40,030 nt of DNA from Chitinophaga pinensis. Lineage in GTDB: Bacteria > Bacteroidota > Bacteroidia > Chitinophagales > CAMDFR01. How positions within the stretch are numbered: position 1 is the first letter of the stretch; the number at the start of each line of letters is the position of its first letter. The DNA is taken from the NCBI GenBank assembly GCA_945860705.1, contig CAMART010000029.1, positions 1 through 40,030 of the forward strand. The letters run 5' to 3'. The translations under genes were made by a program, and so were the position numbers. Positions 11,726 through 36,420 of the stretch are shown here, in pieces. The notes beneath the pieces were generated by a model that did not search any database, had not been told where the DNA came from, and saw only the letters and a program-made list of their open reading frames with translations.

Positions 11726-12570
11726 TTGAACTCTACATCAGTAAAATAAGCTATAGGTTGATATCCTATTTTTTTGTAGATACTATTTGAAGTAGGATTA
11801 CTTGCATCTGTAAATAAACCACATGCTTTTTTGCCTTCAGTAAGGATTATACTTTCACTTAGTACTTTTACTAAATTTGATGCATATCCTTTGCCTCTAT
11901 ATGCAGGAGGAGAATAAACTAATGATATAATGCCAATGTTTTTAGTTTCTCTAGTATATGCAGCAATACTTACTATATCATAGTCATCTATCCAAACAAA
12001 CAATCGTTTTAGTTCAATTCGATTTAAAGTATTTGCTCTTATAGTTTCTAATGATTGAAGTGGGAATAATGATGCGTCTTTTTGAAAAGAATCAATATAC
12101 TTTACTAGTATATCTATGTCTGATTTTTCTGCTATGCTCATTTTACCCGGACATGTTTCAATCTGGCTTACTTCATCTAATTGATGTGCGATAAGAGATT
12201 TGGATTGAAGTATTTTGATTGATGTATTTGATAATAGCAAAGGCAATAATCTTTCTATAAGAATGCTCAAGCCACTAATAGTAGTAAATTCTATATTATT
12301 TATTAGTATATAATTGGCTAATTCTCGTAGTGCAATATCATTCAAATCTAATGCATTTATAAAAAGTCTATTATTAGATATAAAACAACTTGCTTTAATT
12401 TCATGATTGTTTATAAGATTGAAAAATGTATAATTATTATTTTCTGTGTTTTTATTAGAGATTGCATTTACTACTCCGAGAGTAATATTACTTATCAATT
12501 CATTTTTTAATAAATAATTTTCTGTTGCATCGATATATGCTTGTGGGGTATTGTATTTTATTATTTTCAT
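11704..12570 (-). CDS. GNAT-family N-acetyltransferase
   Basis: A 288-residue protein. The C-terminal half (about residues 130-285) is a GNAT fold: IGIISLVYSPPAYRGKGYASNLV contains the acetyl-CoA pyrophosphate-binding R-G-K-G-Y-A motif, followed by DASNPTSNSIYKKIGYQPIAYF, the usual N-x-x-S-x-x-x-Y-x-x-x-G-Y/F segment. The N-terminal 130 residues show no motif I can name and may be a degenerate second GNAT lobe. The acceptor substrate is unknown. It follows the secreted FG-GAP gene but is separated from it by a strong terminator, and I found no TAnnTTTG site in the short gap. Confidence 0.82.
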   Translation of the reverse strand: MKIIKYNTPQAYIDATENYLLKNELISNITLGVVNAISNKNTENNNYTFFNLINNHEIKASCFISNNRLFINALDLNDIALRELANYILINNIEFTTISGLSILIERLLPLLLSNTSIKILQSKSLIAHQLDEVSQIETCPGKMSIAEKSDIDILVKYIDSFQKDASLFPLQSLETIRANTLNRIELKRLFVWIDDYDIVSIAAYTRETKNIGIISLVYSPPAYRGKGYASNLVKVLSESIILTEGKKACGLFTDASNPTSNSIYKKIGYQPIAYFTDVEFNKKILSE

Positions 12571-12582
12571 ATTTTATTTTTT

Positions 12583-12620
12583 TTATAAAAAAAACCGCCT
12601 CATGTATCATGAGACGGTTT
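12583..12620 (-). terminator. Terminator of the FG-GAP gene
   Basis: Arms AAACCGCCTCATG (12592-12604) and CATGAGACGGTTT (12608-12620). The single mismatch becomes a G-U pair in the minus-strand RNA. A TTTTTTTTATA tract follows on that strand. It lies 27 bp after the stop at 12647. Confidence 0.85.
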
Positions 12621-12646
12621 CAATTATATTATTAAAATTCTAGTCT

Positions 12647-15532
12647 CTATTCTATCATTAATTTACAATTTACTTTTTGATTGTTTTTAGTTACTTCCAT
12701 CAAATACATTCCTTTAGCAATGTCAGATACATTTACAATAGTCTCTTTAGATAGAGTAGCAAATTCTTTGATAATATTACCTGAAATACTAAATATTTTC
12801 ACCCCTACTTCTGTAGCATCATTATTAATGATAGTAAACTGAGTGGTGCTAGGGTTTGGATAGAAACTTATACCAAGATCGATTGGTGTAGCATTTATAC
12901 CTACGTTTGAAGTGTCTTGTGTAGTATCAGCAATAACAGTGATTGTAACTGGCACGTATGCACTGTAACAAGTTGTAGATTGTTTTTCGATATTCCAATC
13001 GTACGAATAGAAATAATAGGTATTTCCAAATGAAGAATTGGTAATAGATACAGCGCCAGATACATTATAAGGGAATGATACTCCACTACTGTTTCTTTTA
13101 AATCTAGGTGATTTATTACCCCAAGTAGGAATAGCCATGTTTGTTGTAGAATCTGTACCGATAGTATAATCTGTACCAATAACTAAAGGCCAATTAAGCG
13201 TAACGATTTGAGTATCTAAAGTAACATTTACGCTTGTACTTTGTAAAATAGTACCACTACTATTTCTCAATTCAAATTTACGAGTACCATCAAGGTCGCT
13301 ATATACTTTTATAGTTTTGAGTGTACATGGCTCAGTAACATCAAAGAACATAAGTCCATTTGTATTATTGCTACCACTATATGAAGAAGTACCTGAATGG
13401 TTTATCATACCTTCTTTTACGATTCCGCCACCTACAGTTGTAGATGATTGCATATAATAAGTAGCATCACTTGTTAAAATAGGAGTAGTATAAGTATTTC
13501 CTGTTCCAAGTGCTGTACCTCCTGTGCTAGTAGGATACCATGTGATATTACTACCTGTGGCTGTAATAGTAGTACTATTGTTTTCAATAATGGTAGTGCC
13601 TGGAGCAGTAGGTGCAGTAGCTGTTATTACATCTACATTAATAGTATTAGATGGCAACATATTGCACAATCCATTTACTTCTACACTATATGCACCTGAA
13701 GTACTTACAACAATGCTAGAAGTACTTTCTCCATTTGACCAATCATATGTAGTGTATCCACTAGGTGCATTAAGAGTGACAGAACCACCATTACAAAATA
13801 GTAAATCACCAGCAGCAGTAATAGTAGGATTAGTCTCAGCTTGAGGTGGACCTACATAAACCGTTCTAGAGATTCCTTTACAGGTATTGCCAGCTTGAGT
13901 AACTTCAACATTATAGTCACCTATAGTACTTACGGTTATAGATTGAGTAGATGCTCCAGTATTCCATAAATATGTATATCCTGCTGGCGCTGATAAAGTC
14001 ACTGTATTACCAGGACATAAAACAGTAGAACCTGAAGCTGATACAGTAGCCGGTGGTGATGTACAAACACCTTCTTTTACACTTACAAATTGATCTACCG
14101 CAGGATTTAATATAACTTGTCTAGTGCCTGATGGCCAAGCAATCACTACAGAATCAACTAATGTATTTGTACCGATTCCAAAATGAACTTGTTGAGAATT
14201 TACCGTACCATAACTTTCACCATTTCTTACTTCTCTCACTTGTACTCCCCAAGCACCATATATCCAAACTTTTGTGCCTATAGCATCTCTATTACTAGCC
14301 ACACCTTCTAAATTGAATGTAATAAAATGATTTGCATTTTTATTGTTGAGCCATAATACATCATCTGTAGAACCTGATGGAGTCACATAAATTCTACCAT
14401 AGCTGGAATATAAATCTATAAAACCGTCATGATTAAGATCCCCTGTAGCAAAAGAAAGCATATTATTATTGTCAAAAATACCTGTAACTAATGAGAAAGT
14501 ACTACCACCCATATTTCTATATAATCTGTGCGCAGAACCAGAAACCATGATATCTATCAAACCATCATTATCAAAATCTTCCATCATACTTTGAATAGGA
14601 GTAATATCTGTAATATCAAAACCAGTGGTAGCTGTAATATCCGTATAATGACCAGTACCATCATTTCTTAAAATTTGGCTTTCATGGTCATGATTGGTAA
14701 GCATCAAATCCATATCTGCATCATTATCTATATCACCAAATGCAGCTGTCCAAGACTGCCATCCAATAGCTAATCCATATGTAGCAGCCATTTCTGTAAA
14801 ATTGCCTGCACCATCATTTACAAATAGGGTATTGATTCTTCTACCATCAGTAGGACTGGTAACTGATTGCCTACATTTTGCAACATATAAATCTAGGTCA
14901 CCATCATTATCAAAATCTGTCCAAACACTACCATAATTTCCTGAGTCATCTGTTGTTGTCACATCAAAATCCATAGTGGTTGTAGAAATATTAAATACTC
15001 CTGCTCCATTATTTAAATATATATGGCTTTCTGCATTGTCATCACAAGCAAAAATATCTATCCATCCATCATTATTAAAATCTCCCATTGTAAGGTTTTG
15101 TAAAAAAAATGCTGATGATGGCAAATTGACTAATGTAGCTCCAGTACCAGTAGAATTGGTCATTAATATCCTTACAGAAGTACTATTTCCTCCTGCTATG
15201 ATGTCTTTATATCCATTTTTATCTACATCTGCTACCGCCATAGCCCAAGCCCAGCCACTTGTAGTACTAAAACTTCCAAGATACACTGAATCAAAGGTGC
15301 CATTTGCTTTTTGTACTTCTACATATGCTCTACTTCCTCCACCTTGTAGCCTCACAATATCATCTCTTCCATCATTATTCCAGTCAATAACAGTTACTGG
15401 ACCACCACTTCTAAAAGATGGTTTTTTAAGTTTAGCATTAGAATTGGTAAATGCTATTTGCGCTGAAAGCTCAACTGTTGTTATTAAAATTAGAATAACA
15501 AGTAAGAAATTGAAGAGTGAATTTTTTTTCAT
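12647..15532 (-). CDS. T9SS-secreted FG-GAP/ASPIC-UnbV repeat protein
   Basis: A 961-residue surface or secreted protein. It has a signal peptide (about 1-25, ending SAQ) and a seven-bladed-propeller-like run of FG-GAP/VCBS repeats with calcium-binding loops (DWNNDGRDD, DVDKNGYKD, DFNNDGWID, DFDNDGDLD, DIDNDADMD, DFDNDGLID, DLNHDGFID; about 50-390). An ASPIC/UnbV domain follows (GTKVWIYGAWGVQVREV to about 490), then two Ig-like modules with LCPG/LFCNGG starts, a beta-sandwich, and a C-terminal T9SS sorting domain (FYPNPSTTQFTI, ending KLMIE). This layout matches CRTAC1-type proteins, whose role in bacteria is unclear. It lies 48 bp downstream of the cytochrome gene, probably co-transcribed. 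Confidence 0.88.
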   Translation of the reverse strand: MKKNSLFNFLLVILILITTVELSAQIAFTNSNAKLKKPSFRSGGPVTVIDWNNDGRDDIVRLQGGGSRAYVEVQKANGTFDSVYLGSFSTTSGWAWAMAVADVDKNGYKDIIAGGNSTSVRILMTNSTGTGATLVNLPSSAFFLQNLTMGDFNNDGWIDIFACDDNAESHIYLNNGAGVFNISTTTMDFDVTTTDDSGNYGSVWTDFDNDGDLDLYVAKCRQSVTSPTDGRRINTLFVNDGAGNFTEMAATYGLAIGWQSWTAAFGDIDNDADMDLMLTNHDHESQILRNDGTGHYTDITATTGFDITDITPIQSMMEDFDNDGLIDIMVSGSAHRLYRNMGGSTFSLVTGIFDNNNMLSFATGDLNHDGFIDLYSSYGRIYVTPSGSTDDVLWLNNKNANHFITFNLEGVASNRDAIGTKVWIYGAWGVQVREVRNGESYGTVNSQQVHFGIGTNTLVDSVVIAWPSGTRQVILNPAVDQFVSVKEGVCTSPPATVSASGSTVLCPGNTVTLSAPAGYTYLWNTGASTQSITVSTIGDYNVEVTQAGNTCKGISRTVYVGPPQAETNPTITAAGDLLFCNGGSVTLNAPSGYTTYDWSNGESTSSIVVSTSGAYSVEVNGLCNMLPSNTINVDVITATAPTAPGTTIIENNSTTITATGSNITWYPTSTGGTALGTGNTYTTPILTSDATYYMQSSTTVGGGIVKEGMINHSGTSSYSGSNNTNGLMFFDVTEPCTLKTIKVYSDLDGTRKFELRNSSGTILQSTSVNVTLDTQIVTLNWPLVIGTDYTIGTDSTTNMAIPTWGNKSPRFKRNSSGVSFPYNVSGAVSITNSSFGNTYYFYSYDWNIEKQSTTCYSAYVPVTITVIADTTQDTSNVGINATPIDLGISFYPNPSTTQFTIINNDATEVGVKIFSISGNIIKEFATLSKETIVNVSDIAKGMYLMEVTKNNQKVNCKLMIE

Positions 15533-15580
15533 TATTTGTGTTTGGTTTTAAGTTTGATATATAAAATTAGCCCTTTTAAA

Positions 15581-17530
15581 TTAAATTCTTAAAAGTTTTT
15601 TTGAAATATTTCCTTTTTGGGTAATTATGTTTATGTAATAAAGTCCTTTTTCGTCTGGTAATAATATCTTTTGTGATTTTAAGTTACTTTTATTATTGAT
15701 ATTCAATACTAATTGTCCTTTTGAATTAAAAACTTGAATTCCCATTATAGCACTAGTTTTTGATTCAATATATACTGCACCATCAAGGGTCGGATTTGGA
15801 AAAACAGAAATAGAATTTGACAAACTAATATCCAATACACTATTTATTATATTAATATTTTTAATAGAATCTATAGCTATTTGAACTGGAGCTTTATCAG
15901 AGGCTATATACATAGCATTGAATGCATCTATTTCAGTAGAAGAACCAAGCCAAGAAAACATTTCTGTAAGAAATGATGGGGGTAAAACTACATAATGCAT
16001 AGAAGCATAAGTATGTACTTTCCCCACGTATCCATTGAGTGGTATTTGAAAATGCACTATATCACTTCCGGTGCCTTGTATACCAGCATTTTTATTAAAA
16101 TCCGAATCTGCATTTGCTAAAGCATCCATTTTTACTGTATCATAGGTATAATGTGAAGTAGAGAATCCTTTAGGCACTAATCTATTATCTTTAAGTAATA
16201 TAGATGAGCGCTCTAATACTGTAGTTTTATTGCCACTAACATCACCCATGACCATTTCATATATTTGAGATTGGTTTTGGCTATTTATAAAATTATGGTG
16301 AGGCTCATAGCCACTGCTAGGTGTTTGGAGCATTTCCCCTGCATTATTAAATTTACCTGATGCAAAAAGTGTATCCCCATTTTCTTTTACTACTACAAAC
16401 TGCAAAATAGCTCTACGAGATGGATACCCACTTGGAAACTTATGACCCGCTTTATTTTCTAGTTTTACTTCAAAATTGATAGAGTCACTAGCTTGTGATA
16501 TAAAAGACACCTCTAAATTAACTGTATTATTTTTAAGATTATCGGTAATATCTCTAAGTGTTTCATCAAAATTTACATCTCTAGCTGAAATTCCTAGAGT
16601 AGTTTTATTATTTTTAATAAGATTGACCATATAAGAATTAGCTCCTGTAAATTTATGCTGATTGAATGGAGTTCTACCTGGAATTGCAGTATATCCTACA
16701 GCAATTTTTACAGGTTCTTCTATTTGTGGCATGTGGCATTTTTGACAAGATTTATCAAGTGCAGGATACGAAGAGTTTAACCACTCATGATATGTAGCTT
16801 GCTCTACAAATGTACCACCAGTAGGATTTCCGCTAAGATCAACAGTATTCGAAATAAGCGTATGGCATGGAGAACAGAATCTGCCTTCGCTTACATGTGG
16901 GCTATACATGGGTAAGATTCCTACATATAGTTGCATAGGCCCTTCCATCACTCCTACAAATGGTCCGTAGGCTACATGATTGGTATCATAGGGTATGTCA
17001 CCTGTAAAACGTGAACCAAGATTTTCGTCTTTGATACTATGGCATCCCATACATGCTACACCTGCTTGCCCAAGTGAATCTGTAGCAAGATTTGCTAAAG
17101 AATATGGTGCTAAGCCATTGAAAAAAGCTTTATAATGCCCCATAGGTGCATGACAAGAAGTACATAAATTTTGAAGTTCTCCAGCATGAGCCGGGTTTAC
17201 TAGAGATTCATGTCTTACTTTAGCAAGCCATAATGGATCTTTTCCAGCTAGACCCATCATAGAAGTTTCCCAGTCATCTACTAAATTAATATCATTGCCA
17301 TCTGCATCTATATTAGCGATATGTAAGGAATCATAACCATGACAACCTGCGCATCTTGTAGGGTGCAAAAAATGTTCATCTGGCTCTATAGGTCCGCCTC
17401 TTAAAGTGCCTTCTATACTTTTATATGCTATATGAGATGGAAATCTATCTGATGGTGCATCAAAATTTGCAAAGGATAACAATGTTATAATTAGTGTAAA
17501 AACAGTAACAATTAGTAAGTTCTTTTTCAT
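15581..17530 (-). CDS. Pentaheme c-type cytochrome with T9SS tail
   Basis: A 649-residue exported protein with a signal peptide (about 1-21). Five CxxCH haem-binding motifs lie at residues 60-64, 123-127, 160-164, 219-223 and 262-266. Many other His residues (H33, H53, H56, H107, H115, H132, H185, H212, H248) could serve as distal ligands. Residues about 310-540 form a haem-free, beta-rich region (KLENKAGHKFPSGYPSRRAILQ), and the last 80 residues are a T9SS sorting domain (SVFPNPTLDG, ending SKKLLRI). It resembles the multihaem c554/NapC-like superfamily, but the exact family cannot be fixed by eye. A haem protein needs covalent haem attachment in the periplasm before outer-membrane export. 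It is first of a two-gene unit with the FG-GAP protein. Confidence 0.87.
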   Translation of the reverse strand: MKKNLLIVTVFTLIITLLSFANFDAPSDRFPSHIAYKSIEGTLRGGPIEPDEHFLHPTRCAGCHGYDSLHIANIDADGNDINLVDDWETSMMGLAGKDPLWLAKVRHESLVNPAHAGELQNLCTSCHAPMGHYKAFFNGLAPYSLANLATDSLGQAGVACMGCHSIKDENLGSRFTGDIPYDTNHVAYGPFVGVMEGPMQLYVGILPMYSPHVSEGRFCSPCHTLISNTVDLSGNPTGGTFVEQATYHEWLNSSYPALDKSCQKCHMPQIEEPVKIAVGYTAIPGRTPFNQHKFTGANSYMVNLIKNNKTTLGISARDVNFDETLRDITDNLKNNTVNLEVSFISQASDSINFEVKLENKAGHKFPSGYPSRRAILQFVVVKENGDTLFASGKFNNAGEMLQTPSSGYEPHHNFINSQNQSQIYEMVMGDVSGNKTTVLERSSILLKDNRLVPKGFSTSHYTYDTVKMDALANADSDFNKNAGIQGTGSDIVHFQIPLNGYVGKVHTYASMHYVVLPPSFLTEMFSWLGSSTEIDAFNAMYIASDKAPVQIAIDSIKNINIINSVLDISLSNSISVFPNPTLDGAVYIESKTSAIMGIQVFNSKGQLVLNINNKSNLKSQKILLPDEKGLYYINIITQKGNISKKLLRI

Positions 17531-17551
17531 CTACAAATTTAATTATATATC

Positions 17552-17559
17552 AAAGTTAA
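17552..17559 (-). promoter_or_regulatory. -7 promoter element, cytochrome gene
   Basis: The minus strand reads TAACTTTG, a full TAnnTTTG match about 22 bases before the ATG, with TTTCG nineteen bases upstream as a weak -33. A second match, TAAATTTG at 17542-17535, lies too close to the start to be the main site. Confidence 0.5.
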
Positions 17560-17601
17560 AATATATAAATGAAAAAACGAAATGTGTTGAAGATTGGTTG
17601 C

Positions 17602-17624
17602 TTATTTATATTAGATATAAATAA
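17602..17624. other. AT-only inverted repeat after clpX
   Basis: TTATTTATAT-TAG-ATATAAATAA, a perfect 10-bp stem 22 bp beyond the clpX stop. It lacks G-C pairs and has no U-tract, so it is a poor terminator. It may be a protein-binding site upstream of the cytochrome promoter. Confidence 0.3.
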
Positions 17625-17645
17625 ACATAATAAGATGATTTTTTT

Positions 17646-18878
17646 TTACGCTGCTTTCAGCATATGAATCTTAGACTTATTGAGTTTTTCTGCTGCTATA
17701 TCTTTCGTTACTTCGAAAGCTTTCACATCACTCATAGATGGAAGTTCGTACATAATATCGGTCATGATAGCCTCACATATAGAACGAAGTCCTCTTGCGC
17801 CCAATTTATATTCAATAGATTTTTCTACTATATACTCTAGTGTATCTTCTGGAAACTCTAGCTTCACTCCTTCCATTTTCATCAATTTTTTATATTGTTT
17901 GATGAGTGAGTTTTTAGGCTCCGTAAGTATGGCTCTGAGTGTTTTTTTGTCTAATGGATTTAGGTGCGAAAGTACAGGCAAACGACCTATCAACTCTGGT
18001 ATAAGTCCAAACTGACGCAGGTCTGAAGGATTGATATATTGAAGCATATTCGCTTCATCTATTTCATTTCCTTTTATACCTTTATTAAATCCAATAACTC
18101 CTGTTTTTAGTCTATTGGAGATGATTCGTTCTATACCATCAAATGCACCACCACAAATAAATAAGATATTAGTAGTATCTACTTTTACCATTTTCTGTTC
18201 AGGGTGTTTTCTTCCTCCCTGAGGTGGTACTAATACTTCACTACCTTCCAATAATTTAAGCATGGCTTGTTGTACGCCTTCACCACTCACATCTCTAGTG
18301 ATGCTTGGGTTATCGCTTTTTCTAGCTACTTTATCTATTTCGTCTATGTATATGATTCCTTTTTGAGCTGCTTCTACATCATAGTTGCATACTTGAAGCA
18401 AACGACTCAATATACTTTCTACATCTTCGCCTACGTAACCTGCCTCTGTAAATACAGTAGCATCAACTATAGTAAATGGAACATTAAGAAACTTAGCAAT
18501 AGAACGAGCTAATAATGTTTTGCCTGTACCGGTACTACCTGTAAGGATTATATTAGATTTTTCTATTTCAATTCCATCTTCTTCTACTGACTGATTTAGT
18601 CTTTTGTAGTGATTGTATACAGCTACTGACAATACTTTTTTTGCATCGTTTTGACCGATTACATATTGATCTAGAAATTTTACAATCTCTTTTGGTTTTA
18701 TAGATTTACCCAAAGTAAATTTGTATTTACTTTGTTTTTGACTAAGCTCCTCTGTGATGATTTGCTGTGCTTGAGCCACACATACTTCGCATATATGACT
18801 ATCTATACCCGCTATTAATATTTGGGTTTCAGATTTTCTTCTATTGCAAAATGAGCAAGTTTGTTCTTGTTTAGCCAA
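17646..18878 (-). CDS. clpX: ATP-dependent unfoldase ClpX
   Basis: A 410-residue AAA+ ATPase that unfolds substrates and feeds them to ClpP. The N-terminal zinc-binding domain has C8, C11, C30 and C33. The ATPase has Walker A GSTGTGKT (about 114-121), the pore loop in [10 protein letters not shown], Walker [10 protein letters not shown], an arginine-finger region and sensor 2 in [14 protein letters not shown]. The ClpP-docking loop appears as GFNKGIKG (the canonical form is IGF). Third gene of tig-clpP-clpX, with 38 bp to clpP. Confidence 0.97.
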
Positions 18879-28857: not shown

Positions 28858-31800
28858 CTATTTAGTCGACTTTACAAGTCTAGTATTTATATGTTTTCCA
28901 TTGATCAATACATCTACTATATACATTCCATCTGCTAAATCTCCTGTTTGTATAGTCGTATTATTCATACCAGCTATACAATTAATAGCACCTTCAGATA
29001 CTATTTTACCAGTGATATCATGTATCGTATACGTAGCTTCAGCATTTTCTTGTACATCTATACTAAGTGTCGTGATATCGTTTGTAGGATTTGGATATAC
29101 AGATACTACTGCGCTAGTAGATGCATTAGACATTCTAGTAAGTATAATCATATTTGTAGTAGTAGATTTACCATCAAAGTCTACTTGTTTCAATCTATAG
29201 TAGGTAGATGGCATATTATATTTATAATCATTAAAGCTGTATTGATGAGTCTCTGTAGTAGTGCCATGTCCACTTATGGTAGCTAGTGTAGTAAAGTTTT
29301 TACCATCTACAGAACTTTCCAATTCAAAATGATCATTATTCAACTCACTCGCTGTAGTCCATTGTATATGATTATGAGCTTCTTCTACATTGCCTGCAAA
29401 ACTTACTAATGTCACCGGAAGACCTACTCCACCTGAATGTGGTGTAAATCCTATTCCACCGCTACCACCAGAGAAACTAGTGATATTATCAAACTGTACA
29501 TAACTTACTCCATTGAGAGTACTCATAGCACTAGGTGTCAATTCAATATTTGAGAAAGAAAAATTATTACCGTCATTGATCAATGCAGGTGTAAAAGCTA
29601 CACCTACTGTTTTAAACCATTTCCATGGAGTAGCATAATAAGGATTTCCTCCTGGTGAAGCTGTAGCATAAGCTACTCTATTTACATCCATCGAATCTCT
29701 TGCAGCAGTTGTATCTGCTGGGTCATAGAAAAATCTGATTTTTACAGGTGTACTTCCTGGATTTAGTGTAGCATTATTTACATTCCAGTATCTTCTCAAA
29801 ATGTATGCTCCATCATAGTCTGCACTAGAGCCTGGTCTTTGTTTCACATCTTTTATTACACCAGTAGTATTATAGTCAAGTACTATTTGAGCAGTACTTT
29901 TTGCTACAATATTCGTATCCCAGTCTATACCAAATAGCCATCTATTATTATTACTTGGGTCTGCATAGTATGTCCATCCTGCATCTTCACAATCAAGTGT
30001 AAGTGGTGAGCCATTAGTGCTTGCACTAAATAATGCAATACTTGAACTAGAAGACTTAATTACGTATTTAGCAGTATCTGAAGTACTACATCCATTTAAT
30101 GTTGCTGTAGAAATATAATTGGTATTCACGGTATTCTTTGCATATAAAGTCAATGAGTCTCCACTAGTATATCCATTAGTTGCTGGTGCATTTGTATATA
30201 GACTTGCTGTAGGAGTCCAAGAATAGGATGTAGTATTTCTGTAATAAATATCTATAGAATAACTAGTCAAAGTACCTAAATCTGTAGGAGCATCATCAAA
30301 TGCCGTTAAAGTCCAGTTTCCATTGGCTGTAGTAAATAAATCTGAAAAAGTACTTGTCAAATTTGCACCAAATGACCCTTTAAGTGAACCTGCCACAGTA
30401 GCATTGGCTCTATATGTACCACTTATAGGTGTACTAGTTGAGCTCAATGCAGGATTTGCACTATTTGATGATATTCTAGTATTTACATAACTACCTGTAC
30501 CTGATGGGCCTTGATCTGCAGCTAAAGCTATTACTTTCCCATTTGGTGCAGTAAGAGTGACTTCAGCATCAGCTAAATAAGCATGATTTAAATTAAAAGT
30601 AACAGCTACACTATCAATAGTAGCTCCTGTTGGTACTGTAGATAAATTTAATATAGAAGAAATTCCTGTAGCACTATTATCAGGTATTGCTAAACTAATG
30701 GTACCTGAAGTAGCACTTGCTGTTCCACTATTAAATCCATTGGTGATATTTAATGGTTGTACTGTACCATTACAAAGGTATACCGAATCTACATTCAATA
30801 TTGGTTTTGTAGGGTAAGGTCTTACTTGTACTATGGTGTCTTTACTTGCTCTACATCCAGTAATAGCATCATATGCATTTACTGTATAAGTTGTAGTTGA
30901 ACCAGGAGTTACAGTTTGAGAAGCTCCACTTAAAGAACCAGGATTCCAAGTATAAGTGTAATTTGGATCATTTGGACTAGTTACATTCAGAGCTACAGAT
31001 TCTCCAATACATACAAATGTAGGAGCAGTAGCAGAAATGGTTGGTGGCGTATTTCTTACTACTACTACAGGAGTTCTTGATGATTGACAATAAGTAGTTT
31101 TTGTTACTGACCAATCATAGAAGAAATAATATGTACCGGTAGTAGTTCCTCCCCATTCGCTTGATGGCAAAGAGATTGGACTACCCACTGTTGAATATGC
31201 AAATCCTGGTGCTGGTGGTGTTTCTCTATGTAAACCAGTAACTGTAGTTGCAGCTTCTACTATCATCTTATACCCTGTACCTGCAGTAGGAATAACAAAA
31301 TTGACTGGTACTATTACTTTTGTACCTATTTGACCTACAGTTATATTCATCGAATAAGTTCCAAAAATAGTAGGAGTAGTCATACTGCTCTGAGCTCTTA
31401 TAGAAATTATTCCCGCTGTGCTTGGGTATATTGCTACAGAATTAATCACACAAGGTTCGCTTGCATTGAATGTGATACCCCAATTATTACTAATAAAATA
31501 AGATAGCGCTGCTACTCTTGCAGGTGGACCAACATTGTATGTATTTGTACCTGTAATTACAGTAGCTCCAACATAAAATGTATCATTTGCAGATAAAACT
31601 GTATCTAGATTTGCACCAAATTTTACTATATTAGTTCCAGTTGCACTTCTATACCATACTATGCTATCTCCTGCATTTGCTGTTGCTGAAAGACGCGCTG
31701 TATCTGTTCCACAAATTGTATCTCCTAATACAGTTAATATTTGCGGACTTATAATTGTCACAGTTATACTATCTATATCTACATTAGTATTATTATCAGT

Positions 31801-34800
31801 CACTGTCACATAATATTTTGTAGTAGTTGTAGGTTTTGCTTTTACAGATGCCGTACTTCCCAATCCTCCTGACCATGAATAGGCATAAGGTGGACAACCA
31901 CCCAAGACAGTAGTTGATAATGTAGTAGAATCTGTATAACAATATGAATTATTAGTAGTATTCATGGCAGTGATATTTGGATTTCCTCCACCCAAAAATA
32001 TCTTTACTGTAGAATCTAATGCACTACATCCTCCCGCCTCTGTCACTACTATTTGAAATTTACCAGTATCAGTTATAGTAGCTACTGTAGTAGGCAATGT
32101 AGTATTGATAAGCGTATTACTAGGATTTAAACTAGTCCATGCATATGTTAATGTTGGTGGTGTGAAGGTATACATCGTTCCAGATGCTGGCCAAGTACTA
32201 ACAGTTGTTGTTGCTATTGAATTTCCAGTAACAGCATTCATATATGTATTGGCAATATCTACGATACCTATAGTTCCATTTGAACCTGGTGTACCTATAC
32301 TAGTGCCATAAATAATTTCAATTTTTCCAGGAGATGAACTTGTACTTCCCCAAAGTACTATTTGGGCATTTACATAAGAGGTTGCACTTGCAACACCTCC
32401 GCCACCACCCGAATTATTATTAAATTGAATCACATATTTACCACCTGCTGCTGCTCCATGTGTTATACTACCTCCATTAGCTGTATTTAAATTTGCATCT
32501 CGTCCAAACATAAAAATTCCTGTAGTTGAACCAATGCTTGTTAATGAAGAAGGAATATTCGTTGCTGGAGCTGCAGTTAGCATTTTCATCCATCCATTTG
32601 TATTCACATTAAAATCAGTATAATTTACTCCTGCAAATGGAAAGCTAAATGTAGGAGAAGGTGTTACTGGATTTGATCCATCATCTACTGAACCATTTAC
32701 AACAGTTGTTAATGTTGTTGGACTAGGTATTGTTAAGAAACTTGCACCAGTTCCAGATGAAAATGCATACGAACTAGCTGTAGAAGCTACACTTGCTACT
32801 ACAGTGATACTATCTGTACCTCCACTACAAGCACTCAAAGTTTGAGGTGTTACAGATGTTATAGTTACTGGACTACCCACTGCTATTGTTCTTGTGGTAA
32901 TTGCTGTACAAGTATTGGCATCTGTTACTGTTACTGCATATGTAGTTGCACTTACTGGTCTTGCATACATCGGATTTTGGTTGGCTCCTGCTGTATACGC
33001 AGTTGTTGCTGCTGTTGTTGTAAACAATCCTGTCACTGCTGCACTTCCATTTACACTCCATCTGTAAGTAGCTCCTCCACTTGCTGTAAGCGTCACTGGT
33101 GAAGTACCGCAAACAGTAACTGTACTTGGCGATATACTTGCAGTTACGATTGGATGTACATTTACAGTATACGAACCTATAACTACTTGCGATGATGCAT
33201 CTGTAATCGTATCATAATAGGTTGTTGTCACAGTTGGACTGATTGTTAATGTAGTTGTAGTTGCACCTGTGTTCCATTTATGAGTAAAAGGTGAACATCC
33301 TCCAATTAAACCAGTATTACTTAATGTAACACTAGTACCTGGACAAACTTTAGCAGCAACTGTAGCTACTGGTATTGCCGAGATAGTATCTGTAGGTACT
33401 CCACCACCTAATGTTACTGTTAAAGATGAATCTAATGCACTACATCCTCCAGTTTCTGACACTACTATTTGATATTTTCCAGTTGCATTCACTGTAGCCA
33501 CTGCAGTTCTTAGTGTATTATCAATTAATGTATTGCTTGGATTTAAACTTGTCCAAGCAAATATAGCAGATGGTGGTGTGAAAGTATACATCGTTCCAGA
33601 TGCTGGCAATGTTGTATTTGATGTTATTGTTGAAGTTGAAGAAAGCCCCGTAGATACTGCTACACTTTGATAATTTGTTGTAGTTGCTCCACTCAATCCT
33701 ATACCATGTGCAGGTGTTCCTGTTGATGCCATGCTTCCAAATCTATATTCTATCTTTCCACTTGTTTCATATAACCATACTTGGAATGTACAGTTAATTG
33801 CTGTTGTTGTACTCCATGTATGTTTTGTTTTAAATTGTACTTTAAATATTCTATTTGGTGCTGTTCCTGTTAATACATAAGAAACTCCTCCATCAGTTCC
33901 TGAACCCATATCGGCACCTGCTACTGACAGTAATAATGATTGTCCTGTGATGCTTCCATATTGAGTGGTGCTTACTGCTGCACTTCCTAATCTCATTACT
34001 CCATTTTCCGATATAGTAAATTGTGTTTGATTTACACCTTCATAAGGAAAAACAAACCCAGAAGGGAAAGTGGTTAAAGTATACGAACCTGCAGCATTAT
34101 CTATACCCGATCCAAAATATACTGTTGCTCCTGTCATTGGATCTAAGCTTGCTCCTGTACTTGAAGCAAAAGCATAACTACTAACTGGTGCCACAACACT
34201 TGCTACAACACTGATACTATCAGTACCACCTGCACAAGCACTTGGAGATTGAGCTGTTACTGAACTGATAGTGACAAATGTACCTTTATTAACAGCGATA
34301 GTACTAGATGCTGTACAACCCGAAGTAGTACCCACTACTGTATATGTGATATTTGCATTCGCTTTACTATAAACAGGATTGGCATCTAACAACGAAGTAT
34401 ATGCTGTAGTTCCTGTAGCATTGGTAAATAAATCTGTGATAGCACTCCATGTGTAAGTAGTTGCACCACTTGCTGTAAGTGTCACGGGTGTATTTCCACA
34501 ATATTTTGTAGCAGAGCCAGAAACTGTAACTGTAGGTGTAGTATTGACTGTAAGTGTATATACTGCTGTAGAATCTACACTTGATGAAGTAGTACAAGTG
34601 ATGATACATTTATAATAAGTAGTCGCTGATAATGCACCTGTTGCTTGTGTACTACTAGTTCCCATGTTTGAATATGGACCAGCCAAAACACTTGCAGTCT
34701 GCCATTGATAAGTAATACCCACGCCAGAAGTAGCTCCGCTTAGAGATAATGTAGTACTTGCTCCACTACACAATGGACTGGTAGCTGCTGTAATCGTACC

Positions 34801-36420
34801 TGCTGTTGGTGCTCCAGTACATACTGGCAATCTAAATTCATCAGCACCTATACATGGAGGATTATTTCTAGACTCTGCATCTATATCTGTAGTAACAGAT
34901 GCTAAATATTCTCCTGTTTGAAAAAGTTGAATATTAGTTGCTGTACTTGCAGTATCAATGTGTAAGTCAGTAGTAGATTTAAATACTGGATTTACATTTT
35001 TTGAATTTGCATCTTTAGATGTGGCAGTTTGCCAATCTGATAGTGTAGTTCTATTTCCGGCATTATAATATCCAACATGACCACCTGGCACATTATAATT
35101 ATTATTATTAACTGTACCTCCTGAAATGTTAAGTGTAGTATTACAATATAATCCGAATGCAAAGGTTGATGTTACTGTATTAGCAATTATATTATTTTGA
35201 AAACTAGAAATTCTTACTCCGGCTAAACTAGCATTAACACAAAAAGATGAGAAATTTGTTCCACTACCTAATTGAGTTCCCATTACTATAGTGTTATTAT
35301 TGAAATTTACTCCTGTAGCTCCTGCTGTAAAAAACACACCACATGGAATATAAGTACTAGTTGAAGAGGTTTGATAAACAACCATTTTACAATCTCTAAT
35401 AAAATTATTTGTGATAGTAGACAATGTATTATTAGTACTTCCTGTAATATAAATTCCATGTGCTCCATATCCACCTGTATTAGGCTGGTTAATATCATGT
35501 ATATTATTACGTGTAACTGTAACTCCATAATTTACAGTACCTATTTCTAAACCTGCAATAGTAGTAGCATATCCAGTACTTCCATAATCACCTACTCTAA
35601 TATCATTACCTTGAACTAATGCACCAGTGCCAGTAGTGGCTGTATAAGAAAGTAAAATACCTCTGCTACCAATATTATTTGCAGATGTTGCACTACCGAT
35701 TATATTACCTAAAATTTGTGTACCTGTATTTGGATATGTTGCAGAAGTTCCTTGTGCATAGATACCATGATAACATCTTGTTATTGTATTATTTTGAATA
35801 ATGGTATTTATACTTGAGTATGCTCCAACAGTAGTTGTGATAGCTGCAGATGCATTTGAAAAAACAATACCATAGTTTGTTACTGTAGATGTAGCTGAAC
35901 TTCTTGCACCTATAATATTACAGTTTTTAATAGTATCATTATCAGCTCCATCTGTACCAGTAGTAGAATTTGAAGATAATCTGATTACCGCTTGACCAGT
36001 AGTAGTTGCTGTTACAGACTGAATTGTTAAATCTTTTGTAGTTCCTCCTACAGTTGCACAACCATCTATTGTTACATTGTCTGCACCAAGCAATTCAATA
36101 ATACCTCTTCCTGTTGTTGGTGTAGCTGCAGAATTTATTACTATTCCACTAGAGTTTGGTTTAATTCTAATTTTAGTATAACTTGAAGGTGCTGCACTTC
36201 TTAAAAGTGGAACAGGTGTAGCTGGTTCTGTGGTGTTTGCGGTGATGTTTACATTTATGACTCCCTGATGCGTACCAGCATTTATGGCTGTAAACGCTGC
36301 ATTTAAAGTAGTATAGGAAGTTGGGCCTGTAGTACCAGCAGTAGCAGTTACGCTTACTTGAGCTGTAGAATGAAACACAAATGCAATAATAATTGCGACA
36401 AAAAGAATAATCTTCTTCAT
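28858..36420 (-). CDS. Giant mosaic T9SS surface protein
   Basis: A 2520-residue Thr/Ser-rich secreted protein, probably an adhesin or matrix protein. Order: signal peptide (1-21, ending STAQ); right-handed parallel beta-helix (about 25-530, with NNTITRCYHGIYAQG- and TRNNIHDI-type rungs); Ig-like modules starting SPLCSG; a nidogen-like beta-sandwich starting near residue 713 (SACAGGTDSISVVASV to LGGG near 1005) and a diverged second copy near 1183-1475; further Ig-like domains; a proprotein-convertase P domain (about 1895-2058); a concanavalin-like region; and a T9SS sorting domain (VSVYPNPTNDIT, ending LVKSTK). No enzyme active site was recognised. The two sandwich copies use ACA/GCA codons more than neighbouring parts. 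Monocistronic. Confidence 0.87.
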   Translation of the reverse strand: MKKIILFVAIIIAFVFHSTAQVSVTATAGTTGPTSYTTLNAAFTAINAGTHQGVINVNITANTTEPATPVPLLRSAAPSSYTKIRIKPNSSGIVINSAATPTTGRGIIELLGADNVTIDGCATVGGTTKDLTIQSVTATTTGQAVIRLSSNSTTGTDGADNDTIKNCNIIGARSSATSTVTNYGIVFSNASAAITTTVGAYSSINTIIQNNTITRCYHGIYAQGTSATYPNTGTQILGNIIGSATSANNIGSRGILLSYTATTGTGALVQGNDIRVGDYGSTGYATTIAGLEIGTVNYGVTVTRNNIHDINQPNTGGYGAHGIYITGSTNNTLSTITNNFIRDCKMVVYQTSSTSTYIPCGVFFTAGATGVNFNNNTIVMGTQLGSGTNFSSFCVNASLAGVRISSFQNNIIANTVTSTFAFGLYCNTTLNISGGTVNNNNYNVPGGHVGYYNAGNRTTLSDWQTATSKDANSKNVNPVFKSTTDLHIDTASTATNIQLFQTGEYLASVTTDIDAESRNNPPCIGADEFRLPVCTGAPTAGTITAATSPLCSGASTTLSLSGATSGVGITYQWQTASVLAGPYSNMGTSSTQATGALSATTYYKCIITCTTSSSVDSTAVYTLTVNTTPTVTVSGSATKYCGNTPVTLTASGATTYTWSAITDLFTNATGTTAYTSLLDANPVYSKANANITYTVVGTTSGCTASSTIAVNKGTFVTISSVTAQSPSACAGGTDSISVVASVVAPVSSYAFASSTGASLDPMTGATVYFGSGIDNAAGSYTLTTFPSGFVFPYEGVNQTQFTISENGVMRLGSAAVSTTQYGSITGQSLLLSVAGADMGSGTDGGVSYVLTGTAPNRIFKVQFKTKHTWSTTTAINCTFQVWLYETSGKIEYRFGSMASTGTPAHGIGLSGATTTNYQSVAVSTGLSSTSTITSNTTLPASGTMYTFTPPSAIFAWTSLNPSNTLIDNTLRTAVATVNATGKYQIVVSETGGCSALDSSLTVTLGGGVPTDTISAIPVATVAAKVCPGTSVTLSNTGLIGGCSPFTHKWNTGATTTTLTISPTVTTTYYDTITDASSQVVIGSYTVNVHPIVTASISPSTVTVCGTSPVTLTASGGATYRWSVNGSAAVTGLFTTTAATTAYTAGANQNPMYARPVSATTYAVTVTDANTCTAITTRTIAVGSPVTITSVTPQTLSACSGGTDSITVVASVASTASSYAFSSGTGASFLTIPSPTTLTTVVNGSVDDGSNPVTPSPTFSFPFAGVNYTDFNVNTNGWMKMLTAAPATNIPSSLTSIGSTTGIFMFGRDANLNTANGGSITHGAAAGGKYVIQFNNNSGGGGGVASATSYVNAQIVLWGSTSSSPGKIEIIYGTSIGTPGSNGTIGIVDIANTYMNAVTGNSIATTTVSTWPASGTMYTFTPPTLTYAWTSLNPSNTLINTTLPTTVATITDTGKFQIVVTEAGGCSALDSTVKIFLGGGNPNITAMNTTNNSYCYTDSTTLSTTVLGGCPPYAYSWSGGLGSTASVKAKPTTTTKYYVTVTDNNTNVDIDSITVTIISPQILTVLGDTICGTDTARLSATANAGDSIVWYRSATGTNIVKFGANLDTVLSANDTFYVGATVITGTNTYNVGPPARVAALSYFISNNWGITFNASEPCVINSVAIYPSTAGIISIRAQSSMTTPTIFGTYSMNITVGQIGTKVIVPVNFVIPTAGTGYKMIVEAATTVTGLHRETPPAPGFAYSTVGSPISLPSSEWGGTTTGTYYFFYDWSVTKTTYCQSSRTPVVVVRNTPPTISATAPTFVCIGESVALNVTSPNDPNYTYTWNPGSLSGASQTVTPGSTTTYTVNAYDAITGCRASKDTIVQVRPYPTKPILNVDSVYLCNGTVQPLNITNGFNSGTASATSGTISLAIPDNSATGISSILNLSTVPTGATIDSVAVTFNLNHAYLADAEVTLTAPNGKVIALAADQGPSGTGSYVNTRISSNSANPALSSTSTPISGTYRANATVAGSLKGSFGANLTSTFSDLFTTANGNWTLTAFDDAPTDLGTLTSYSIDIYYRNTTSYSWTPTASLYTNAPATNGYTSGDSLTLYAKNTVNTNYISTATLNGCSTSDTAKYVIKSSSSSIALFSASTNGSPLTLDCEDAGWTYYADPSNNNRWLFGIDWDTNIVAKSTAQIVLDYNTTGVIKDVKQRPGSSADYDGAYILRRYWNVNNATLNPGSTPVKIRFFYDPADTTAARDSMDVNRVAYATASPGGNPYYATPWKWFKTVGVAFTPALINDGNNFSFSNIELTPSAMSTLNGVSYVQFDNITSFSGGSGGIGFTPHSGGVGLPVTLVSFAGNVEEAHNHIQWTTASELNNDHFELESSVDGKNFTTLATISGHGTTTETHQYSFNDYKYNMPSTYYRLKQVDFDGKSTTTNMIILTRMSNASTSAVVSVYPNPTNDITTLSIDVQENAEATYTIHDITGKIVSEGAINCIAGMNNTTIQTGDLADGMYIVDVLINGKHINTRLVKSTK

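Follow-up and report, generated by a model that had tools for sequence, protein, structure and literature searches.

What joins a pentahaem cytochrome and a CRTAC1-like propeller protein, both with a sorting tail of the type IX secretion system (T9SS), as neighbours in a Chitinophaga pinensis genome? The two genes lie at 12647-17530 of a 40,030-nt stretch of DNA (contig CAMART010000029.1, assembly GCA_945860705.1), which is referred to here as the window. Our analysis suggests that in Bacteroidia the pair could form a surface redox module with two components, a propeller for recognition of the substrate and a cytochrome for the transport of electrons, a reading that we regard as evenly poised between right and wrong. 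The cytochrome gene (15581..17530, minus strand) is of the c552/ExtKL pentahaem cytochrome (PHC) kind with a T9SS type A tail and encodes a 649 aa open reading frame (ORF). The CRTAC1-like FG-GAP/UnbV_ASPIC gene, also with a T9SS tail, encodes 961 aa (12647..15532, minus strand). Both were assigned by profile scans and by AlphaFold2 (AF2) folds. On the minus strand the cytochrome gene comes first and the CRTAC1-like gene second, with an intergenic gap of 48 bp (15533-15580). The sequence-only reading of this DNA had described a five-CxxCH cytochrome with a T9SS tail 48 bp upstream of a CRTAC1-like protein, and its ORFs, motifs and gap were all confirmed; the FG-GAP/ASPIC-UnbV nature of the partner, with a tail of the same kind, was borne out by matches to FG-GAP_3, UnbV_ASPIC and TIGR04183. 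A terminator scan of 12300-17900 found no terminator-like site between the two genes. The sole site was an intrinsic terminator-like hairpin of 14 pairs followed by a T run, right 3' of the CRTAC1-like gene (12591..12621, minus strand); as shuffled sequence gave a mean of 2.3 sites, its position is informative and the count is not. The genome itself holds a single copy of the pentahaem cytochrome (an additional match covers the tail region alone) and one UnbV_ASPIC match at E 1e-6, and chance adjacency of the two genes is therefore unlikely.

Conservation of the neighbours in relatives had been set beforehand as a refuting test, and across families the pair proved to persist where other neighbours are replaced. 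The cytochrome was present in 7 of 59 relatives (own genome included): in five the partner lies directly downstream on the same strand, in one the contig ends 66 bases on, and in one the two genes are on separate contigs. From a scan of genome contigs the best 80 of 388 cytochrome relatives were kept as loci. Among them, 34 had an adjacent CRTAC1-like partner on the same strand, 12 had it on the opposite strand, no more than 6 kb away, 11 ended within 1 kb downstream and 23 had no visible partner (7 on partial flanks and 16 on full flanks). The stop-to-ATG spacing was 59 bases in the median (29 pairs). Within four genes of 83 cytochrome loci, the CRTAC1 cluster counted 52 members, 50 of them confirmed as CRTAC1-like by score, and the next clusters 6 each. 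At two loci (L047, L052) CRTAC1-like copies stood on both sides of the cytochrome gene and at a third (L083) upstream only, in each case on the opposite strand; these arrangements suggest duplication or rearrangement of the pair.

Co-occurrence of the two families, a check already raised in the sequence-only reading, was found even where the genes are unlinked. Of the 34 loci where no partner was visible, 28 were taken to a genome search; they fall in 26 genomes, 25 of which encoded the partner elsewhere (E 1.5e-67 or better). In a class sample of 60 genomes, 14 had the cytochrome, and the CRTAC1 subfamily, called as an UnbV protein of at least 570 bits against the partner profile, was present in 13 of these 14 and in none of the 46 cytochrome-negative genomes (Fisher 2.7e-12, a value that overstates the significance, the genomes being related). 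High-scoring CRTAC1-like proteins were located away from the cytochrome in four genomes (G476, G477, G512, G513), as was one copy each in two others (G099, G485). Because several partner genes do not adjoin the cytochrome, linkage alone cannot account for the coupling. A cytochrome neighbour as a general property of UnbV proteins was rejected. A c-type cytochrome lay directly upstream on the same strand of 12 of the 20 UnbV proteins of at least 330 bits (nine pentahaem, three dihaem), while a CxxCH protein lay directly upstream of 1 of the 46 UnbV ORFs below 330 bits; among background ORFs, 5 of 363 contained CxxCH. This census comprised 66 distinct ORFs, which account for 67 of 68 UnbV_ASPIC matches (two fell in one ORF); the uncovered match (G539:C2) is in a genome already scored positive.

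The three dihaem neighbours belong to a second association. In 11 genomes of the families f24/f25 the CRTAC1-like gene was present and no pentahaem match was found; loci were fetched for nine of them, and at all nine the gene directly upstream of the CRTAC1-like gene encodes a protein of 364-385 aa that has two CxxCH motifs. Four scanned CRTAC1-linked dihaem proteins scored 270-289 bits against TIGR03806 (SO2930 family), below the cut-off of 313.3. All 11 fetched loci of this dihaem subgroup (L158-L160 and L164-L171, with L158 from the same genome as L103) were beside a CRTAC1-like gene, and no CRTAC1-like neighbour was seen at the eight SO2930-family loci that scored low on the dihaem profile (L161-L163, L172-L175, L177); the link thus holds for one SO2930-like subgroup, set by a profile from CRTAC1-linked members. 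The dihaem partner was also considered as a MauG/CCP protein and rejected, since neither Pfam (six proteins scanned, E up to 0.01) nor NCBIfam gave support. A sequence search of one dihaem protein against solved structures returned no match. A lipobox-like pattern occurred in 14 of 22 dihaem ORFs by an ad hoc expression, several of whose matches are apparently misplaced, and no claim is built on it. Canonical SO2930-family pairs (TIGR03806 with TIGR03805 or TIGR03606) combine a dihaem cytochrome with a large beta-structured protein and are comparable in gene pairing, although the pentahaem cytochrome of the window is of a different family from SO2930 dihaem cytochromes. Two canonical members tested had a TIGR03805 beta-helix neighbour. 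The window's own genome encodes such a canonical dihaem cytochrome (G000:C15:27975-28922, equivalent to L176 6913-8079; 407 bits, above the cut-off) next to a TIGR03805 beta-helix gene, a second pair of cytochrome and beta-structure. At another locus (L135 2486-3946) the neighbour of a canonical gene weakly matched TIGR03606 and is PQQ-dependent glucose/sorbosone dehydrogenase-like (67 bits, cut-off 434).

A tree of 118 UnbV proteins, with midpoint root, placed the propellers linked to either cytochrome in one group of 79 rows (Shimodaira-Hasegawa-like approximate likelihood-ratio test, SH-aLRT, 100); as the rows were partly collected via the cytochrome, the tree speaks to grouping and not to rates. 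Within it, 38 rows were adjacent to a pentahaem gene and 14 had one nearby, 17 were adjacent to a dihaem gene and 1 had one nearby, and 9 had neither. The remaining 39 rows included none adjacent to either cytochrome family and 1 with a dihaem gene nearby. A pentahaem-linked protein (L097) formed the first branch of a 20-row group with the dihaem-linked rows (SH-aLRT 99). This placement suggests the trace that an exchange of partners is expected to leave, and the midpoint root allows either direction. From these sequences, the propeller seems to have been retained through a change of cytochrome.

What kind of cytochrome occupies this position in the window? Its haem-binding region (residues 60-266; 16733..17353, minus strand) holds five CxxCH motifs, which start at residues 60, 123, 160, 219 and 262. 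The AF2 model (mean predicted local distance difference test, pLDDT, 91; 73-row alignment, modelled without haem) matched Thermochromatium tepidum c552 (5ze8) over model residues 51-558 (VIA Z 25.5, root-mean-square deviation, rmsd, 2.8, 347 aligned, 22% identity). With five CxxCH motifs and a predicted c552-like fold, it is a pentahaem cytochrome of the c552/PHC type. Five non-motif histidines (212, 248, 292, 363 and 411) were conserved in at least 99% of the 73 rows and would be compatible with bis-His ligation, being sufficient as second ligand for every haem. The motif HxxPxGxPxR is common to the window protein and c552, and in the window it is part of GHKFPSGYPSRR (residues 362-373; 16412..16447, minus strand), identified from profile alignments, which holds Tyr369. 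The ExtKL/MccSep pentahaem (seleno)cytochromes (NF040886; PDB 9wt8) share the aligned GH..P.G motif, and 71 of the 73 cytochrome relatives matched at E up to 0.01; the window protein itself reached 35.6 bits against the ExtKL equivalog NF040886, short of the cut-off of 250. Tyr369, invariant in the 73 rows, aligns with an Ala of c552 and with Sec325 of MccSep, where selenoprotein members have a TGA at the GxP site. Of 100 in-class ORFs, counted with duplicates, 98 had Tyr at this site and the other two had no readable motif; of the 10 loci outside the class that matched the tail profile (L109-L118), 8 had Ile there. The Tyr/Ile difference is possibly a functional switch, to judge from the alignment. 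A single close relative (G002) has a TGA inside the reading frame, which was rejected as selenocysteine because the codon lies in the region of the tail, close to the end of a contig, and not at 369; one out-of-class relative (G369) likewise has one internal TGA.

Residues 576-647 of the cytochrome (15590..15805, minus strand) form its T9SS type A sorting domain, whose score of 40.9 bits against TIGR04183, above the cut-off of 23, makes the protein type A cargo by profile. In the model the tail resembled solved T9SS substrate tails (8gl6_D, Z 11.1; 8glk_D, Z 10.3). A TIGR04183 tail (E up to 0.01) was found in 72 of the 73 aligned relatives, and it sets the window protein apart from MccSep and from 5ze8, no part of which aligns with it. 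A set of out-of-class relatives of 556-589 aa (L119-L122, L124-L128), in which no T9SS tail was found, adjoins a single-CxxCH protein; two of these neighbours were scanned and matched Cytochrome_CBB3 in Pfam. SprA (2434.7 bits) is encoded in the window's own genome, which also has two above-cut-off matches to Cytochrom_C_asm; the cell therefore has T9SS as well as c-haem attachment at its disposal.

The fold match to c552 would also fit a cytochrome that serves minerals or partners as an extracellular wire or terminal reductase, as in the PHC kind, with the propeller merely an anchor or adhesin. In the passages drawn on here, a cable-bacteria paper of 2025 described ExtKL, Gsu2801 and relatives as a pentahaem family that is structurally homologous to c552, and suggested a link of this family to the AvECN nanowire (PMC11976967). 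Secreted multihaem cytochromes were predicted in Bacteroidota from a sludge secretome, and extracellular electron transfer was proposed (PMC11495043); in the main text of that article, neither 'T9SS' nor 'type IX' appears as a term. However, we noticed no second multihaem protein and no porin conduit next to the two genes in the window, where no systematic search was made, and we consider this explanation unlikely.

The partner combines FG-GAP_3 (six stretches), UnbV_ASPIC, Ig_7 and a T9SS tail. The propeller, with seven Ca-type motifs, covers residues about 25-400 (14333..15460, minus strand, from model and alignment), the UnbV_ASPIC domain residues 417-483 (14084..14284, minus strand; 65 bits, cut-off 23.4) and the T9SS type A sorting domain residues 891-960 (12653..12862, minus strand; TIGR04183 46.2 bits); the tail (E up to 0.01) was found in 41 of 41 aligned relatives. 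The AF2 model (pLDDT 87.8, 41-row alignment) matched murine CRTAC1 (9etn_A) with Z 39.3, rmsd 2.6, 436 aligned and 18% identity. With a domain score above 23.4 bits and a predicted propeller fold, the protein is a member of the CRTAC1/UnbV_ASPIC family. It shares the propeller and the UnbV/ASPIC core with vertebrate CRTAC1, beyond which it has an Ig-like region, a T9SS tail, a partner cytochrome gene and subfamily residues. In blades 2-5, four of these residues (W96, Q145, Y200 and W261) each stand six places ahead of the Asp that comes first in the Ca-type motif. Together with C163 and C220 they were 86-100% conserved in the high-scoring (57) and middle-scoring (22) UnbV rows; in the 39 low-scoring rows the four and C220 occurred in 0-3% and C163 in 26%. 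From the topology, these signature residues would line one face of the propeller channel, and their pattern of conservation may reflect a role of W96, Q145, Y200 and W261 in recognition.

Seven Ca-type motifs in the partner allow another role for the cytochrome, which by analogy might not carry electrons and might instead aid the Ca binding or folding of the propeller, as TfcP, a cytochrome with a single haem, does for PilY1. In Myxococcus xanthus the cytochrome c TfcP was reported to stimulate Ca binding by the surface protein PilY1 in the context of the T4 pilus (PMC8833165). By the passages available from that study, however, TfcP has noncanonical His/Cys haem ligation, is periplasmic and is unlikely to take part in electron transport (PMC8833165), whereas the window cytochrome has five CxxCH motifs, five spare histidines and a T9SS tail of its own, and so is not of the TfcP-like single-haem, His/Cys type. 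Furthermore, two cytochrome families in one slot are easier to understand through a shared redox role, and a Ca helper seems improbable to us.

The same conserved residues raise the question of whether the cytochrome oxidises residues of the propeller, for example the conserved Trp and Tyr, in the style of the haem-dependent residue modification by MauG or MbnH. W96, Q145, Y200, W261 and Cys220 are confined almost entirely to the cytochrome-linked score groups, as such a role might require by analogy, but Cys163 is present in 26% of other UnbV proteins. Moreover, the window cytochrome had no match to CCP/MauG-type Pfam families at E up to 0.01, its fold resembles pentahaem c552 and it has conserved histidines enough for bis-His ligation of all haems. 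The haem-dependent modification of surface material that the sequence-only reading had offered as one option is weakened by the same observations, and residue oxidation appears quite doubtful.

Returning to the two-component redox module, the parts could be arranged as follows. The cytochrome would gain its five haems in the periplasm, fold there and then cross the outer membrane through T9SS by means of its tail, and the CRTAC1-like propeller would leave by T9SS as well. At the surface, the Ca-type propeller may recognise a substrate or partner via subfamily-specific side chains, aromatic or amide, that occupy corresponding positions in four blades, while the cytochrome would supply or remove electrons. 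The propeller would be the constant part, and in one branch the pentahaem cytochrome would be swapped for an SO2930-like dihaem cytochrome. Because two cytochrome families occupy the same slot, electron transfer is the need that they would share, and because the propeller persists with its signature residues, it is the propeller that would carry the specificity. Export of the holoprotein, formation of a complex and electron transfer are what we infer here. A more specific form, in which the UnbV/ASPIC propeller is the substrate-binding and possibly catalytic subunit of a surface oxidoreductase with an exchangeable cytochrome subunit, is put forward tentatively. The surface redox or electron-transfer module of the sequence-only reading fits the conserved pair and the unlinked co-occurrence, with a surface location that is predicted. 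In other bacteria, HZS-like clusters of clades I-III have, by the published description available in part, an FG-GAP/CRTAC1 gene beside genes whose products are homologous to HZS subunits and in some cases carry haem motifs (PMC12758564). They differ in having other subunits and in belonging mainly to other phyla (PMC12758564); by analogy they may point the same way, to a redox module with a CRTAC1 family gene.

Several observations, in addition to the relatedness of the genomes noted above, weigh against the redox module. The profiles that set the partner score thresholds were themselves made from cytochrome-linked sequences, and linkage therefore enters into the split by score. One cytochrome-positive genome of the class sample (G506) and one of the 26 searched genomes (G446) lacked the partner, and two relatives without the cytochrome (G033, G045) encode a protein of the CRTAC1 group. 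In a phylum sample of 392 genomes, where 3-4 CRTAC1 candidates per genome were scored with a cut-off of E 1e-60, 21 of the 24 cytochrome-positive genomes were from outside the class and had no CRTAC1 match at that cut-off. Conversely, 13 of the 16 CRTAC1-positive genomes were without a pentahaem gene, 11 of them f24/f25, and this sample taken alone gave no overall coupling of cytochrome and CRTAC1. Judging by the 16 full-flank loci and the 21 out-of-class genomes, the pentahaem cytochrome is apparently able to function in the absence of the partner. As for the signature residues, they could be structural instead. That the two genes have no joint function and are T9SS cargo genes held together by vertical descent or shared ecology is nevertheless very unlikely in our view: the distances of the two proteins correlate as under vertical descent (29 pairs, r 0.83), but the pair persists while other neighbours change, its presence is coupled even when unlinked and a second cytochrome family has the same slot.

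Elsewhere in the window, an ORF at 17646-18878 on the minus strand precedes the cytochrome gene at a spacing of 115 bp, and 28858-36420 encodes a 2520 aa T9SS-tailed protein with Ig_7 and a proprotein convertase P-domain.

Both protein families are already known, and secreted multihaem cytochromes were predicted earlier in sludge Bacteroidota, as far as the available text of that study goes (PMC11495043). Among the literature matches listed, mostly from the open literature and consisting of titles, starts of abstracts and passages (including those of PMC13188914), no description of the pair was found, nor of the T9SS-tailed pentahaem subfamily, of the cytochrome-linked CRTAC1 clade with its signature or of the partner exchange. 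The genes stand often side by side in many related bacteria, which suggests, at the level of sequence comparison, a previously undescribed electron-handling device at the cell surface. The bacterial CRTAC1-like proteins encountered here bear family names alone, and a clade tied to a cytochrome turns this into a testable redox hypothesis. The aligned relatives also provide a large candidate set of T9SS-exported multihaem cytochromes. They raise the question of how a folded, haem-loaded protein passes T9SS, and that of a surface electron route in Bacteroidota other than the porin-cytochrome conduit. If the propeller is indeed the subunit of an oxidoreductase with an exchangeable cytochrome, a clade of bacterial CRTAC1 proteins would gain a function, and T9SS would routinely export finished multihaem cytochromes.

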